Source: Globomyces pollinis-pini (Eukaryota > Chytridiomycota > Chytridiomycetes > Rhizophydiales > Globomycetaceae). Taken from it: a stretch of DNA of 27,070 nucleotides. The notes beneath the pieces are model-generated. The model had not been told where the DNA came from. It saw nothing but the letters and a program-made list of their open reading frames with translations, and searched no databases. This document shows, in pieces, positions 9,854 to 25,681 of this stretch. Made by a program: the position numbers and the translations under genes. Position 1 is the stretch's first letter, and the number at the start of each line of letters is the position of its first letter. The DNA lies in assembly GCA_025399215.1 (NCBI GenBank), contig MU621249.1:5927-32996 (forward strand). Reading direction: 5' to 3'.

Positions 9854-10351
9854 TGTTTTTTTTTATATTGAATGTCAATACAGTTTGGAATTAAAAAACA
9901 AAAAAACTAAGATGAATGAATGCATTCAAAAGTCCATTTGAATGAGATAATCATGGTAGTCATAATCAATCTAATTGCGTATATGAATTATTCATATATA
10001 TTACAATGTATTACATGTACTATTATTATACGTACTGATACTATATGGATCATGATTGGTAATAACCAATGGATTAGAGTTCTTAAAGTCAATCCATTGT
10101 TAAATTAAATTAAATATCCAATTGATCCATGGCTCATCAAACAACTGCTCCCTAACAAAACTTGTTCAACACACTTGAAAGTATCCATAATTAATATACT
10201 ATTTAATACTATCATCCTAATTCATCTCGATTTATTTATCCTTAAAGTCTTCTGACTAGCACAATTCGAGTCGTTTTGTGTCACTATCTTCCGCTGGTAT
10301 CCCAGTCCATTCGTTTCATTATTGTCCCTTTCTTTTTCTTATTATTATCAA
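9854..10351. other. Intergenic, divergent promoters
   Basis: 498 bp between the Ulp2-like start (-) and the 7TM start (+). It is very AT-rich. The last 40 bp before ATG 10352 are a pyrimidine-rich leader (GTCCCTTTCTTTTTCTT). I see no gene, tRNA or clear repeat. Confidence 0.6.
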
Positions 10352-16272: not shown

Positions 16273-17329
16273 ATGTTAATTATTTCATTGTCCATTTTGT
16301 ATATGACAGTAGTATCCTTAGTTCTGTCCGAATATCCTATTCCAAACGCCAAACCGCCCATAAACAAAACTTGGACAGACATATTTTTACAAGGAACCAC
16401 TATTCCTACTATTCCGGTAAACACTGCCCCTATAGCAGTACCAAATCATGCGGATGATTTATCAACATGTCCAAATCCTACTGATTGGGCAATTACCTAT
16501 GGTATACTTAATCTATTAACATTTAGATGATGGGCCAAGTCAATTTACTCCAAAAGTTTTAGAGTTACTTCAAGAGCAGAATGTAAAAGCAACCTTTTTT
16601 GTTATTGGATCAAATGTTCTCAAATTTCCGGAAATCCTCCTTCAAGTACATCAAGCAGGTATTGTGTGTACAAATATTAAATTACAAGGTCACCAAATAG
16701 GGATTCATACTTGGTCTCATACAGCATTAACCACACTCACGAATGATGAGATAATCGCAGAGTTGGTCTGGACAGCAACAATAATTAAAGATATAACTGG
16801 CCAAGCACCAAAATATATGAGATGTCCTTTTGGGGACATCGATGAAAGAGTTCGGGCAGTCATCAAATCAATGGGATTGATTGTTGTATGGTGGAATCGT
16901 GACTCTAAAGATTTCTCATATACAAATACTCCTGCACAAGCTTCTGCCATAGACAGTTCTTTTGTTTCCTGGGCAGCTTCAAAATTGAGTGCAATTTCAC
17001 TCCAACATGATATTGCCCAAATACCGGTGGATCATGTTACCACTACATTAAAGATAGTGATTGATGCAAAGTACTCGATTAAAACAATCGCAGAATGTGT
17101 TGGTGATAAAGAACCATATAAAAACCAATTCCTGATGAAAGCTGGTATTGTAAACAAATCAGGTACGAATCCAACTGGCATTATCGTGAACAATGAAGTA
17201 ACTTCTACTGCTAATCCTCAACCTACACTAAGTCCTAGTGATTCACCCAAGTCTGATAGTATTCACATATTCAAGAGTGTGTCATATTTTTCTATGATGG
17301 CTTTGTCCACTTTTCATTTCCTGATTTAA
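16273..17329 (+). CDS. CE4 polysaccharide (chitin) deacetylase 1, GPI-type
   Basis: Probably removes acetyl groups from chitin at the cell wall, giving chitosan. Exons 16273-16501, 16527-16658, 16689-17329 (introns 25 and 30 nt); 333 aa. N-terminal signal peptide (LIISLSILYMTVVSLVL). CE4 motifs: TYDDGP (75-80; Asp77 expected base, Asp78 metal ligand), HTWSH (His127, His131), RCPFGD (165-170), WWNRDSKDF (188-196) and SLQHD (224-228). A Ser/Thr/Pro-rich tail and a hydrophobic C-terminus suggest GPI anchoring. The first intron splits the Asp codon of motif 1; the second lies just before the metal-binding histidines and is absent from copy 2, its closest relative in the cluster. First of four tandem copies. 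Confidence 0.92.
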
Positions 17330-17817
17330 AGGACAAATACAAACTATTTATTTAAGTAACATTTTCGTTTGTTTTTCATCAAAGTACAAGATAGATAGTA
17401 GATAGGAGAATTGACAGTATGGTATCACAAGTGTGACCACATTTTCATTCTAAAGAATCGAATGACCTGAATGTGGAATGCAGAATGGGTTCTGTAAGCG
17501 GATCGGGACTTGAATCATCCATTCATAATTTGAAATTCATTATTACACATTAGGTTCACGACCATACAATTACAAATGAATGGTAAGTTGGTAAGAAAAG
17601 GCGTCACTCTACCGACTTTGCGGTTGACTACCCCTTGCTAAAATCGGAAAATCTTACAACTCTTTTAATCACGTTTTTAGCCATTAAAATGGCTTTGGAC
17701 CTGAAAAAAGAGTGGCGTGAAATCGGTCAAAATGAATATTTGAAGATTCAGATTCTTGATTTCACTACAGATTATTAGAGAAAAGCTTGGTATTTCATTC
17801 ATACAATAATTCACGAA
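17330..17817. other. Intergenic between deacetylases 1 and 2
   Basis: 488 bp with no supported gene. It contains the 12-mer AATGGTAAGTTG (17579-17590), found again upstream of deacetylase 3, and a small hairpin-like AGCCATT-AA-AATGGCT (17679-17694). No clear TATA box near ATG 17818. Confidence 0.55.
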
Positions 17818-18887
17818 ATGCTGTTTATATCAATCTTGTTCACCTATGTAAATGCTTTGAATTTAGCAGATTACCCTACACCAATGCAGAAACCACCCGG
17901 AAATCCTACTTGGACTTCCACCTTCCTAAAAGATGCAAACATTCCCAATATTCCCATCAACTCATCGCCTGCTAAAATGCCAAACCATGGTGATGATATT
18001 GCCGCATGTCCAGCCAGAGACGATTGGGGCATTACTTATGGTATTTTTGTCCTAAACTAAATCTAGATGATGGACCTAGTCAGTACACTACAAGTGTTCG
18101 GGAACATTTACAAAGTCTGAATGTGAAAGCCACATTTTTCGTTATTGGCTCCAATGTAATAAAACACCCTGAACAATTGCTGGCGATTCATAAAGATGGA
18201 CACCAAATCGGGATCCATACTTGGAGTCATACTCCATTAACTACCCTCTCAAATGATCAAATTATCTCAGAAGTTGTTTGGACTGCGAAAGCGATAAAAG
18301 AAGTAACTGGTGTGACACCACGATACGTTAGATGCCCAGAAGGGGATATTGATAATAGAGTACGTGCGGTATTGAAAGCCATGGGGCTACGAATTGTATG
18401 GTGGAATCGCGATTCTAAAGACTATACGTTGATTTCATCCCCATCTGCAGCAGCTGGGATTGAAAGAGTATTTCAACAATGGGCTTCCGAAGGAAAACAG
18501 GGGACAATCTCCCTACAACATGACATTCATCCATTGGCTGTTGAAAAGAGCGGTCCAACTCTCAAGACAGTTGCAAATGCTGGATATAAGATAAAAACAA
18601 TAGCTAGTTGCTTGAATGATGCCAATCCATACAGTGATTCTCTATTATCAAGATTGAATCTGAATACTGTAGTAACTACAACTATACCAGTAATTACTAC
18701 CACCATCAATAGTCAGACTCAATCTACCACTACTACTTTACCACCAGTTGCCAATATTAAAGATCCAATTGTAACCGGCACCAATCAATCACCAACTCCG
18801 ACTGCAAAGCCAAATTCGGCCAGTTTGCAAAGTTGGAATCATTTGATTATTTCTATTTCAATCATTTTTTACGCACTCTATTTCTAA
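17818..18887 (+). CDS. CE4 polysaccharide (chitin) deacetylase 2, GPI-type
   Basis: Closest relative of copy 1. Exons 17818-18040 and 18067-18887 (26-nt intron); 347 aa. Signal peptide MLFISILFTYVNAL, then YPTPMQKPPGNPTW. Motifs: TYDDGP (73-78), HTWSH (His125, His129), RCPEGD (163-168), WWNRDSKDY and SLQHD. Motif 3 is unusual: the aromatic residue expected after Pro (RxPF/Y) is Glu166, which could alter substrate binding or activity. The intron splits the catalytic Asp codon as in copy 1, but the second intron of copy 1 is missing. A Thr-rich linker (TTTIPVITTTI...) and hydrophobic end suggest a wall-exposed GPI protein. Confidence 0.92.
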
Positions 18888-19331
18888 TATAAACTGTTTA
18901 GATGAAGTTTGCATGGAATTCAAATGTGACACGCAATTGAACTTTGATTATCCGTTTCTTTGCTGTCTCTTTGAGTAGGTATTATTGGATAAATAATAAA
19001 TGGTAAGTTGATTGAGTACAGACTTTGAATGACCGTGCGCAGAACAAAATATCCCAAGTTTATCCATTAATCAAAGAGAAAGCACAACTAACAATACCCT
19101 TTTTGTTCGTAACACAAAAAAAGAATTGATAAAAGAACAGTTAATGAATCGTTTTCTGCCCTCAAAATTCAATTCAAAGTAACAAGGTTGAAATTTAATA
19201 CTTTACAATATACCATTTAAGGGTTTACGCACGTTGAATCGAGAACGGAATACACGTTCCAAAACAGTTCCTTGATCATTTGTGTGATACAGAACCATTA
19301 TAAAATGTGAGATTTTCTGTAATATTTGATA
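18888..19331. other. Intergenic with imperfect inverted repeat, between deacetylases 2 and 3
   Basis: 444 bp without a gene. An imperfect inverted repeat pairs TGCTGTCTCTTTGA...TTATTGGATAAA (18961-18993) with TTTATCCATTAATCAAAGAG...AGCA (19059-19084). It encloses a second copy of AATGGTAAGTTG (18999-19010). TATAAAAT at 19299-19306 is a likely TATA box for copy 3. Could be a small decayed element or a regulatory fold. Confidence 0.5.
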
Positions 19332-20467
19332 ATGAATGTTTTATTGGTGACTGTGACGCTATGGGTAGCTGTCAGTGGTCTTAGTTGGGATTACCCTACT
19401 ACTATGGACAGGGTACCTCCTGTCAATCCTGCATTTACAGAAATGTTTTCCCCTTCTATTCTTACAGTAAGTGGAGGAGGCTCCGAAATATATTCCTGTA
19501 GACAACAGAATAGTTGGGCACTAACATTTGATGATGGACCATCTCCCCACACAAGAACTTTACTGGTCGAATTGAAACGACGAAATATTAAAGCGACATT
19601 TTTTGTAAAAGGTCAACAAGTTCTAAAACATCCTGATATTCTTCAGCAAATTCATGCAGAGGGACATGAAATTGGGATACACACTTGGAGTCATCCATCA
19701 CTCTATTCACTAACTAACGCCCAAATTATTACTGAGGCAATGTACACGCATCAAATTATTCAAGACCTTATTGGGGTTAGTAGTAGATACTTTCGTGCAC
19801 CATTTGGCTCCACAGATTCGCGTATAAATGGACTGCTGACCCAAATGGGATTCTCAGTTATCAGATGGAATAGAGACACAAGAGATTTTACAGGACCAGT
19901 AGTAAGTCAATACGTAAATTCATGGTTATCTGAAGCTGGTTTGATTGGGACAATTTCATTACAGGTATGGTTTTTTGATGTTGATTGTAGCATGATTTAT
20001 TGCCTGATACTGCGGTACAAGCTCCCGGAGCAATGGATTTAATACTTAAATCAAGATATCAGTTAAAGACTGTTAGTCAATGTGTCGGTATTGGTGCATA
20101 TGGGCCATTGCGATTCAAATCTAAAGATGACAAATCGCCTATTGTTAATCCCCCTGTCACAGCAGTCAAGCCAACAACATTAAATCCTCAAGTTACTGGT
20201 ATCAATCCTCCCACAAATACGAAAGACAAAGGAACATCTAGTACCACAATAAATGCAGTGGTTTCCTCAGCAGCCCCTTCGGCAAACACTCCTACAGTAA
20301 TCAATTCTGTAGAAGTAACGCAAACGGGAACATCAGTAGACGCTACATCTACCGTGACCCCTGTGTTGGTCAAACCTTCCGCATCTGCAACTCCAACAAA
20401 CAGTAGTGGGAACAAATCACCAACCAGCACTATTGTATTGCTTCTAACCCTTGCCGTGATGCTATAG
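19332..20467 (+). CDS. CE4 polysaccharide (chitin) deacetylase 3, GPI-type
   Basis: Second subfamily. Exons 19332-19964 and 19991-20467 (26-nt GTATGG...TAG intron) give 369 aa from ATG 19332. Signal peptide MNVLLVTVTLWVAVSG. Motifs: TFDDGP (65-70), HTWSH (His117, His121), RAPFG (155-159), RWNRDTRDF and SLQHD; all metal and catalytic positions look intact. The intron falls in motif 5, exactly between Gln and His-Asp (phase 0), unlike copies 1 and 2. The stalk after about residue 270 is Ser/Thr/Pro-rich, then a hydrophobic end (TSTIVLLLTLAVML) typical of GPI-anchored wall proteins. Confidence 0.93.
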
Positions 20468-20909
20468 AATAGACAATAAAGACAATGAACACTTTAGTCA
20501 GTCCATTCATCTGATCATCAGTGTGGCATTTTTTGTCGTTTTGAACACAAACCATCCAAAGTGACCTACAGCGGATTCTGAATTTAATTTAATACAGCGC
20601 ATCAGTTTAAAGCAATTGCTGAGTTGTAATACTAAATACAGCCCAAGAAATTTGGAAACTGCCAGCATCAATGATTTACTCACAAATAGATTTGAGTGTT
20701 CGTTCTCCAAGCAATTATTCAACAAAACTCTCAAGATCGAAAGGAGCTCATACAGCACCTTCAGCAAGCCAAATGGAAACACGTTTTTTTTAGGTTCCTT
20801 TTTGATGTCGCACGAGCGTTTCATTGGTCCCTCATAAGCTTCTTCATCATCCTACCAACGAACGCCTCTTAAATACTTTAAACGACTCTTGCATTTTTGA
20901 AAGCTACAA
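20468..20909. other. Intergenic between deacetylases 3 and 4
   Basis: 442 bp. Open frames exist on both strands (e.g. 20507-20824 minus) but show no family motif or signal peptide. TTAAATAC/TTTAAA about 40 bp before ATG 20910 may act as an AT-rich core promoter. Nothing else recognised. Confidence 0.55.
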
Positions 20910-21967
20910 ATGAAATACTTTTGGCTTATCAGTGGAATTGTAGCAGCTGATATCAAATACACTTGGAATTATCCAACCATCCCTGATAAAGTTCCTGAAG
21001 TCAATGCTGCTTTTGTCAATGCATTTGACCCACAAATCTCAAATCTCACCAATGGACCTCCAATAACATTTGAAAAATATGGTTGTAATCAAGTCAATGA
21101 ATGGGCACTTACTTTTGATGATGGACCAGGTCCAAGTACTATATCCGTCTTGGATGAGTTAAAGTCACGCAATTTAAAGGCTACTTTCTTTGTAAAAGGT
21201 CAACAGGCTATTCGATATCCAGAAATTCTCAAGCGAATATTCAAAGAAGGTCATGAAATTGGTATTCATACTTGGAGCCATCCTCAGTTATTTACTTTGA
21301 AAAACTCCCAAGTTATCACTGAAGCAATGTACACCCATCAAATTATAAAAGATATCCTTGGAGTTAGTTGTAAATATTTTAGACCCCCATTTGGTTCAAG
21401 TGATAATAGAGTTCGCGGAGTTTTAGAACTAATGGGATTTGTTGTGGTTCGTTGGAATCGAGATACCAAGGATTGGTCTGGACCAGTACTAAAGGCAAAT
21501 ATGGATCGTTGGATAGCTGAACCAATCACTCATGGTAGCATATCACTTGAGGTAAATTGCTTGAAAGTTAACGATAGCATGACTTGTTTCCAGATGCTGC
21601 AAGCCAGGCACCTTACGCTATGAATGTACTGCAAAAATCCAAATATGCTCTACGTACTGTTAGTCAATGTATTGGTATAACACCCTATGGTGAACTTAAT
21701 TACAAGCGTGCTCTTGTTGCCAACGAAACAATCAAACCAGTAACTTTTCCGTCTATTGCTGTTCCGACCGGAGTAGCATTTGCAACTACCATTACTTGGG
21801 GTGTCGCACATACCAAGACAGCGACAGCTACAGTTCAAGCTGCGAAAACCTCAGTCAATGAAATCCCCTCTCCAGCCCCAGCACCTACTTCTTATGGAAA
21901 GAATTATGGCACAATAACTCAAGTTCCTACTTTTCTGTTCCCTCTCCTTGCGTTAATTTGCTTATAA
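20910..21967 (+). CDS. CE4 polysaccharide (chitin) deacetylase 4, GPI-type
   Basis: Closest to copy 3. Exons 20910-21551 and 21578-21967 (26-nt GTAAAT...TAG intron); 343 aa. Short signal peptide MKYFWLISGIVAA. Motifs: TFDDGP (68-73), HTWSH (His120, His124), RPPFG (158-162), RWNRDTKDW and SLEHD. Intron position and phase are identical to copy 3 (before the motif 5 His-Asp). The C-terminal stalk is shorter and Ala/Thr-rich, ending VPTFLFPLLALICL, again GPI-like. Likely wall-associated chitin or chitooligosaccharide deacetylase. It lies 123 bp upstream of the SCFD2-like gene. Confidence 0.93.
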
Positions 21968-24892: not shown

Positions 24893-25681
24893 ATGGCAAA
24901 AGTTCAACGAAATTTACCTGGAATACGACTGGAAGAATGGTCTACCTTTGCAATGGGAGACATTCAAGAGAATATTCAACATTTGATTAGCTTGGACTCG
25001 AATGATATCAGTACCATTTTAACACTACCTGAAAATGTAAATGAGATTCAGTGGAAATTCTATCAAGTTAGGTATCTCTAGCTCCGATCTCTTCAAATAT
25101 AGGTAATAGATTGGATTTTGGATTTAATTAACAGGTAGTTTTATGGATTTTTGAATTTATCATTTAGGTATTATATCCAACTACTTTTAATCCAATCACA
25201 GGCAAATGTGTTTACAGCTTAATGGTATATTGCATTAGTATTTATGAGTTTCATCTAGATCTCTTTTGTGACCTTGCATTCGAATGTAATGCACAAACGT
25301 GTCCTGAAATGAAGGCTGGAAAGTGGAAATACCTCTGTGCTGCACATTCAGAGACCCAAGCATGCTGTGCAATCGATTATATGGAGCATGCGCTAGAAGG
25401 TACATCGATTATACTAAGTTCCGATGTATTTTACCCTCAAACGTAATTTTGAATTGATTTTGAATGGTAGTGGGATATTGTCTGAAGCTGCAGATAAAAC
25501 GTTGAAGAATGCAGTTCGTAGATTGTATCGTATCTTTTCACATTGTTGGTATCATCATAAACAAATATTTCTTGAATTTGAAAGTAAGACAAGTCTTTAT
25601 GGCAGATTTCTAGAATTCACGACCAAAACGTATCGAATGATTGATGAAGAGTTAGTGACAATTCCGATGCCGTATATGTGA
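24893..25681 (+). CDS. MOB4: MOB4/phocein-like kinase regulator
   Basis: MOB-fold protein of 198 aa; family knowledge places MOB4 (MOB3 in filamentous fungi) in the STRIPAK phosphatase-kinase complex. Exons: 24893-25071, 25202-25224 (23 nt), 25259-25442, 25471-25681. The N-terminus QRNLPG resembles the RRNRPG of animal MOB4. Splicing across the composite intron gives VRQMCLQLNDLFCDLAFEC, matching the MOB4 pattern LRQFCMELN...SEC. Zinc ligands are visible: Cys77 and Cys82 (ECNAQTC) plus the two histidines of SHCWYHH. LCAAH...CAIDYMEH and RLYRIFSH are also typical of MOB4 rather than MOB1/2. The intron before the 23-nt exon is exceptional and listed separately. Confidence 0.92.
25072..25201 (+). 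other. Composite intron made of four abutting GT...AG modules
   Basis: The MOB4-like coding frame requires removal of 130 nt here. The segment divides without remainder into four units: 25072-25102 (31 nt, GTATCT...ATAG), 25103-25134 (32 nt, GTAATA...ACAG), 25135-25167 (33 nt, GTAGTT...TTAG) and 25168-25201 (34 nt, GTATTA...ACAG). Each has the size and ends of an ordinary intron in this window. The junctions are AG|GT with no exon bases between. Units 2 and 3 share a core resembling TGGATTTT-G-ATTTA, hinting at duplication. Confidence 0.75.

Follow-up and report, generated by a model that had tools for sequence, protein, structure and literature searches.

The MOB4/phocein gene of the chytrid Globomyces pollinis-pini is interrupted by a first intervening sequence of 130 nt, in a genome whose ordinary introns are mostly 24-34 nt long. 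What is this sequence, and how does it leave the transcript? The gene lies in the window (the whole stretch of 27,070 nucleotides analysed here, G000:C160:5927-32996), and similar arrangements were searched for in the 18.5-Mb assembly of 459 contigs. Judged from the sequence, the 130 nt are probably a chain of four tiny spliceosomal introns that meet at zero-length exons, each unit being excised as an intron of its own.

Structure of MOB4 and of its first intervening sequence

On the forward strand, exon 1 of MOB4 (24893-25071) starts with the ATG at 24893; it is identical to the NCBI model and matches phocein without a gap from residue 23 on. The 130-nt sequence follows at 25072-25201. Downstream of it lie exon 2 (25202-25224, 23 nt), intron 2 (25225-25258, an ordinary single intron of 34 nt), exon 3 (25259-25442), intron 3 (25443-25470, an ordinary single intron of 28 nt) and exon 4 (25471-25681, including the stop codon at 25679-25681). 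Exons 2 and 3 are placed by identity to the NCBI model, by the phocein alignment and by the retention analysis described below. The 23-nt exon and the 34-nt intron behind it had been proposed in a sequence-only reading of this locus and were confirmed.

The spliced gene encodes 198 amino acids with 100% identity over 100% of the length to BC833DRAFT_528318, the NCBI model of Globomyces pollinis-pini. Alignment to phocein (PDB 7k36) showed no gap at the junction WKFYQVR|QMCLQLN, and all three related proteins found lack an insert at this position; therefore, exactly 130 nt must leave the transcript. When any non-empty subset of the four units described below was retained, the protein was truncated or frameshifted (15 of 15 combinations). 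The earlier claim that the frame needs precisely 25072-25201 removed is thus borne out by the identity to the NCBI model and the gap-free phocein alignment.

The 130 nt divide into abutting units of 31, 32, 33 and 34 nt: unit 1 (25072-25102, GTATCT...TATAG), unit 2 (25103-25134, GTAATA...AACAG), unit 3 (25135-25167, GTAGTT...TTTAG) and unit 4 (25168-25201, GTATTA...CACAG). Each begins with GTA and ends with AG, AG|GT stands at all three internal junctions, and both lengths and ends fit the ordinary U2-type introns of the genome. Among 20,000 dinucleotide shuffles with the first 3 and last 2 bases fixed and a unit size of 22-38 nt allowed, none could be divided into abutting GT...AG units. The coordinates and the four-unit division first noted from the letters alone were exact.

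The last 35 nt of exon 1 (25037-25071) also form a GTA...TAG stretch, flush with the chain, which could pass for a fifth unit to an annotator or to the cell; its removal would shift the frame. As a fifth upstream unit it was dropped, because the residues it encodes, VNEIQWKFYQVR, align gap-free to phocein; a first, poorly trained version of our gene finder had used its donor.

On its forward strand the window also carries, at about 16303-21967, four consecutive related genes for secreted single-domain products, which by eye look like polysaccharide (chitin) deacetylases. It holds a GAPDH gene as well, and a stretch translated from this gene is 100% identical to a protein of Globomyces pollinis-pini. 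The records of a GAPDH relative (P0002, 88%) and of a MOB4 relative (P0122, 52%) both give a 5,746-base metagenome contig, which suggests that MOB4 and GAPDH are also neighbours in a relative.

Ordinary introns of the genome

A purpose-written gene finder (the decoder) was trained on 227 kb, made up of the window and of 20 ten-kilobase stretches taken from contigs 1-20. When all lengths of 18-45 nt were given equal prior weight, 381 of 452 introns in the final training round measured 24-34 nt, with a peak at 28-29 nt; when the prior was instead learned from that run and extended by a tail up to 300 nt, the same range held 484 of the 537 introns predicted. The three introns of the GAPDH gene are 32, 28 and 30 nt long. 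Predicted lengths look two-moded (517 of the 537 at 45 nt or less, 1 at 46-69 nt, 10 at 70-99 nt and 9 at 100 nt or more), the group of 100 nt or more being doubtful; several of the longest predictions are flanked by poor exons and are probably mistaken.

Two longer single introns were predicted in conserved genes. In ESF1, an intron of 82 nt lies within the match to the Pfam model RRM_ESF1; a relative of solved structure was looked for and none was found for this protein. In a stomatin-like gene, an intron of 84 nt is flanked by two Pfam domains; the protein predicted after splicing aligns to QmcA (PDB 8z5g) without a gap at the junction. AGGT is absent from both introns, so no upper size limit compels stepwise removal, and the earlier suggestion that a machinery tuned to about 30 nt may be unable to remove longer introns found no support. 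A search with Rfam models located U2 snRNA at C213:1166-1358; the U1 and U12 models gave no match, and their controls were equally silent.

Chains across the genome

We counted three successive AGGTA words at the spacing expected of abutting introns. At gaps of 20-31 nt there were 287 such triplets genome-wide (129 forward, 158 reverse), compared with 11 at gaps of 33-44 nt and 11 at gaps of 7-18 nt; triple matches overlap, and 100 matches listed correspond to 69 separate places. For triple AGGT, 943 matches were found at intron spacing versus 212 at longer spacing. A second control, the words read backward, was less favourable to chains: backward AGGTA gave 72 at intron spacing and 64 and 74 at the other spacings, and backward AGGT gave 1,952 at intron spacing and 1,867 at longer spacing. 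Such counts chiefly reflect the overall frequency of the reversed word. Because backward words are commoner at every spacing, other spacings of the same word are the fairer control. Genome-wide, the words are enriched at intron spacing.

In the 227-kb sample, zero-length internal exons numbered 16 (13 at a stricter intron cost), compared with 0-4 (0-3) internal exons of each length from 1 to 10 nt. For this count the exon-side splice-site weights were set to zero, so that AG|GT earned no bonus. The decoder listed ten chains in the sample, of which those in L007, L017 (minus strand) and L024 have weak flanking exons. It also errs: the MOB4 gene and its chain were missed in the 227-kb run, and a 27-nt exon of a PhyH gene was called a unit. 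In the sample alone the AGGTA spacing profile is modest (20 pairs at 21-36 nt), and the argument that chains are general is carried by the genome-wide AGGTA counts rather than by this profile. A first pass without a length prior had found 9 of 109 predicted gaps longer than 45 nt decomposable, against 1.08 expected from simple interior shuffles; most of these 109 gaps are decoder errors or real long introns.

The lengths of chain units do not differ from those of single introns in the unbiased 227-kb sample (16 units, mean 29.0 nt, KS p = 0.9998). In a larger set of 33 chains, the 125 units measure 24-36 nt, apart from two units of 23 and 40 nt. G at intron position +5 is less frequent in the units of these chains (0.10) than in single introns (0.23); in a set of which most chains were picked by AGGTA, this points to somewhat weaker 5' splice sites. 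Long AGGT runs at intron spacing were also seen at G000:C4:31807-32069 and C7:65414-65641, many of them with GTT or GTG starts in place of GTA.

Could AT-rich long introns simply hold accidental AG|GT, the division into units being made post hoc? Short chains taken one by one would allow it (4,034 of 20,000 shuffles of a 52-nt gamma-tubulin chain were decomposable), but with none of 20,000 for MOB4 or for a PhyH chain, 17 of 20,000 for a 108-nt gamma-tubulin chain, the excess among long predicted gaps and, above all, the spacing controls, chance is already contradicted and keeps practically no probability. Sequence support is strong that chains are a real and general arrangement in this genome.

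Chains in conserved genes

The gamma-tubulin gene on contig 15 contains the 108-nt chain (29, 24, 26 and 29 nt; C15, about 10105-10212), which lies beyond chance, and the 52-nt chain (26 and 26 nt), which alone does not. Without the chains, the first 206 residues align gap-free to a gamma-tubulin of solved structure (PDB 8va2). A gene for a PhyH dioxygenase contains a chain of ten units in 285 nt (G000:C12, about 42085-42369; L027:3286-3570); the junction IFK|QP left by its removal is kept in 6 of 6 aligned homologues. The 27-nt first "unit" that the decoder had placed here (GTTTTA...) was rejected, comparison with the homologues having identified it as an exon (VLQSMLIFK). A 5-unit chain in a Ste20-like kinase and a 3-unit chain in a Dopey protein each lie within a Pfam domain. 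With MOB4 and the two chains of gamma-tubulin included, homology backs seven chains in six genes. The Pfam matches of the HD, prefoldin and SDR genes do not span their chains, and that of the Usp gene spans its chain at a score below the curated cut-off; these four were left out of the homology-proved set.

These alignments bear on whether a chain might be partly translated, as a coding minisatellite or as retained micro-exons. In the NCBI model for PhyH (BC833DRAFT_47563), 19 residues from within the chain are indeed translated, but these residues are missing from all six homologues. Moreover, gamma-tubulin and MOB4 align gap-free once their chains are removed, and no retained subset of MOB4 units spares the protein. 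Translation of chain sequence is thus very improbable.

Branch-point motifs in chain units

Removal of a chain in a single step would call for a branch point in the last unit only. We learned a branch-point motif from 322 single introns, approximately (A/T)(T/C)T(A/G)A(T/C), located 2-8 nt before the final NAG. Ordinary introns score 0.82 in training and 0.71 when held out, and shuffles score -0.96. For the chains, 39 (10 from the sample, 28 from the targeted search and MOB4) were reduced to the set of 33 chains and 125 units by dropping leading units without a GTA start and units longer than 45 nt, because the 27-nt PhyH "unit" had proved to be an exon.

Among non-last units, 56 resemble no other unit of their own chain. 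These score 0.91, compared with -0.96 for their own shuffles (KS p = 7e-18). Since units without a similar partner score this high, inheritance of the motif through recent duplication does not explain the branch points of non-last units. By this measure, non-last units look like introns in use.

The motif belongs to units as a class and is uneven in MOB4. Unit 2 has a good predicted motif (TTTAAT, about 25123-25128; 0.96 quantile of its own shuffles), units 3 and 4 have moderate ones (best motif ATTTAT, about 25155-25160, 0.82 quantile; TTTAAT, about 25186-25191, 0.75 quantile), and unit 1 has no clear motif (0.54 quantile); none of the four values is individually significant. Given its score, unit 1 may be removed jointly with unit 2, or its branch point may be atypical.

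Separate or one-step removal of the chain

We propose that each unit acts as an intron in its own right. Its excision would join an AG end with the GTA that follows and so keep or regenerate a splice site for further short-range rounds of splicing, and short-range pairing of splice sites (intron definition) would remove the units singly. Whether the GT of a unit pairs with the AG of the same unit or with one further along, the shortened chain could still be spliced, so all orders of removal would lead to the same exon 1-exon 2 mRNA. Stepwise removal through zero-length exons, as the sequence-only reading had it, is therein retained as the best reading of unit lengths and branch-point motifs. 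Its strict left-to-right ratchet is unproven, because the mRNA is the same whatever the order of pairing and unit 1 is without a clear branch point. Support for separate excision of the units is good but indirect; for MOB4, we infer one excision and one lariat per unit, as well as the order of removal and an origin by duplication.

Alternatively, the chain could be a fossil of duplicated introns, with the first 5' site pairing with the last 3' site and the internal AG|GT left over. One-step removal would yield an identical mRNA, and it would be consistent with the single 82- and 84-nt introns predicted without internal AG|GT and with the poor branch point of MOB4 unit 1. It is at odds with non-last units that have no similar neighbour and yet hold motifs as good as those of single introns, and with diverged chains whose junctions and unit lengths are still intact, as would not be expected of units out of use; in PhyH, it would have to remove 285 nt at once, far beyond the usual intron size here. 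For the targeted chains, the junction argument is limited by their ascertainment through AGGTA. The branch-point argument is free of this limit, because the decoder called chains without any branch-point term. Given these observations, we regard removal in one step as unlikely, and separate excision of the units as the preferred reading.

Origin of the chains

Neighbouring units are more often alike than distant ones: 19-20 of 92 adjacent pairs (21%) were similar at p<0.01, compared with 12% of 130 non-adjacent pairs. Two units of the PhyH chain are identical, and near-copies occur in a chain on contig 68. When three units, none of them from MOB4, were searched genome-wide with up to 3 mismatches, they matched only inside their own chains (2, 3 and 1 matches). 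Taken together, these results favour in-place copying over the spread of a mobile intron for young chains.

These features suggest that, in at least some chains, a whole intron was duplicated in tandem where it stood. In the decoder training, exons tended to end in AG before an intron. Exon end and intron end would then share AG, and slippage between them would copy exactly one GT...AG unit. Such a duplication would be nearly harmless, because the copy would itself be a complete intron.

Most neighbours lend duplication no support: the remaining 79% of the 92 adjacent pairs have no similarity at p<0.01. This majority would suit a different origin, in which introner-like introns repeatedly entered the AG|GT of an existing splice site, splicing still being stepwise; an AG|GT site is expected from insertion and from duplication alike. 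Near-identical neighbours within several chains speak against repeated insertion, as do the three searched units, which revealed no dispersed family. Independent insertion is regarded here as unlikely. As for tandem duplication, the origin suggested earlier for the MOB4 array is backed in other chains and only hinted at in MOB4 itself: the kinship of units 2 and 3 noted earlier gave p = 0.0115 against random intron pairs, an uncorrected value for the best of six unit pairs.

Discussion

In kind, the chain removal proposed here is recursive splicing, yet with tiny introns and no required direction. As in the ratchet-point recursive splicing of Drosophila described in PMC8605326, AG|GT stands within an intervening sequence (three times in MOB4, as abutting 3' and 5' splice sites), zero-length exons are invisible in the mRNA, and stepwise removal would regenerate a 5' splice site. 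According to the same account, Drosophila ratchet points (0-nt exons) occur predominantly in long introns and are tied to cryptic downstream exons. The chains described here differ in location and in scale: the units are 24-36 nt long, up to ten of them abut, the MOB4 chain totals only 130 nt, and similar neighbours point to tandem duplication.

Fungal stwintrons, as described in PMC5639578, are complex intervening sequences removed by consecutive splicing reactions in which splice sites are paired by intron definition, and consecutive removal is likewise proposed here from sequence. In a stwintron, however, the introns are nested, the inner one splitting a donor, branch point or acceptor of the outer (e.g. 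[D1,2]), whereas the units here are complete and stand side by side. Micro-exons of 1-2 nt, which could mimic the [D1,2] or [D2,3] type, numbered 0-3 each in the 227-kb sample, compared with 13-16 zero-length exons.

Other systems share single features. The human UBC gene, in the account of PMC10809524, has a tandem AGGT array usable as 5' or 3' splice sites and linked to tandem duplication; its repeats are coding monomers and give isoforms of differing length, whereas intron repeats here would give one product whatever the order. Intron gain through tandem genomic duplication at AGGT (PMC4974935) also makes splice-competent units by AGGT-bounded copying, but there exonic sequence is turned into an intron, whereas here an existing intron has apparently been multiplied in place. 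The ciliates Stentor and Loxodes also splice far below the usual minimum size; the descriptions of their ultra-short introns in passages of PMC9505925 and PMC11441545 include no end-to-end chains. A passage of the Galdieria intron paper (PMC5880011) holds nothing relevant to chains. Introner-like elements form dispersed families of similar introns, and no such family appeared for the three units searched. In the open-licence literature, which leaves out most subscription papers and preprints, we found no report of tiny introns chained end to end. The arrangement is apparently unreported, as a variant of recursive or complex introns.

On balance, the sequences favour a genome-wide mode in this chytrid in which intervening sequences would grow one complete intron at a time, with AG|GT at each joint, and be removed unit by unit in any order. 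Because a duplicated unit would automatically be splice-competent, chains could lengthen neutrally, in ratchet fashion, to ten or more steps through zero-length exons. For gene prediction, chains are misleading, as the NCBI PhyH model with its additional residues illustrates.

Recursive splicing is usually discussed for very long introns, and chains of introns of about 28 nt would place it at the opposite extreme of size. If this reading is correct, a compact fungal genome would offer many natural test cases, including the conserved gamma-tubulin and MOB4 genes; the chains would be a direct record of in-place intron multiplication, and they would provide a clean system for studying how the spliceosome chooses partners where all choices give one mRNA.
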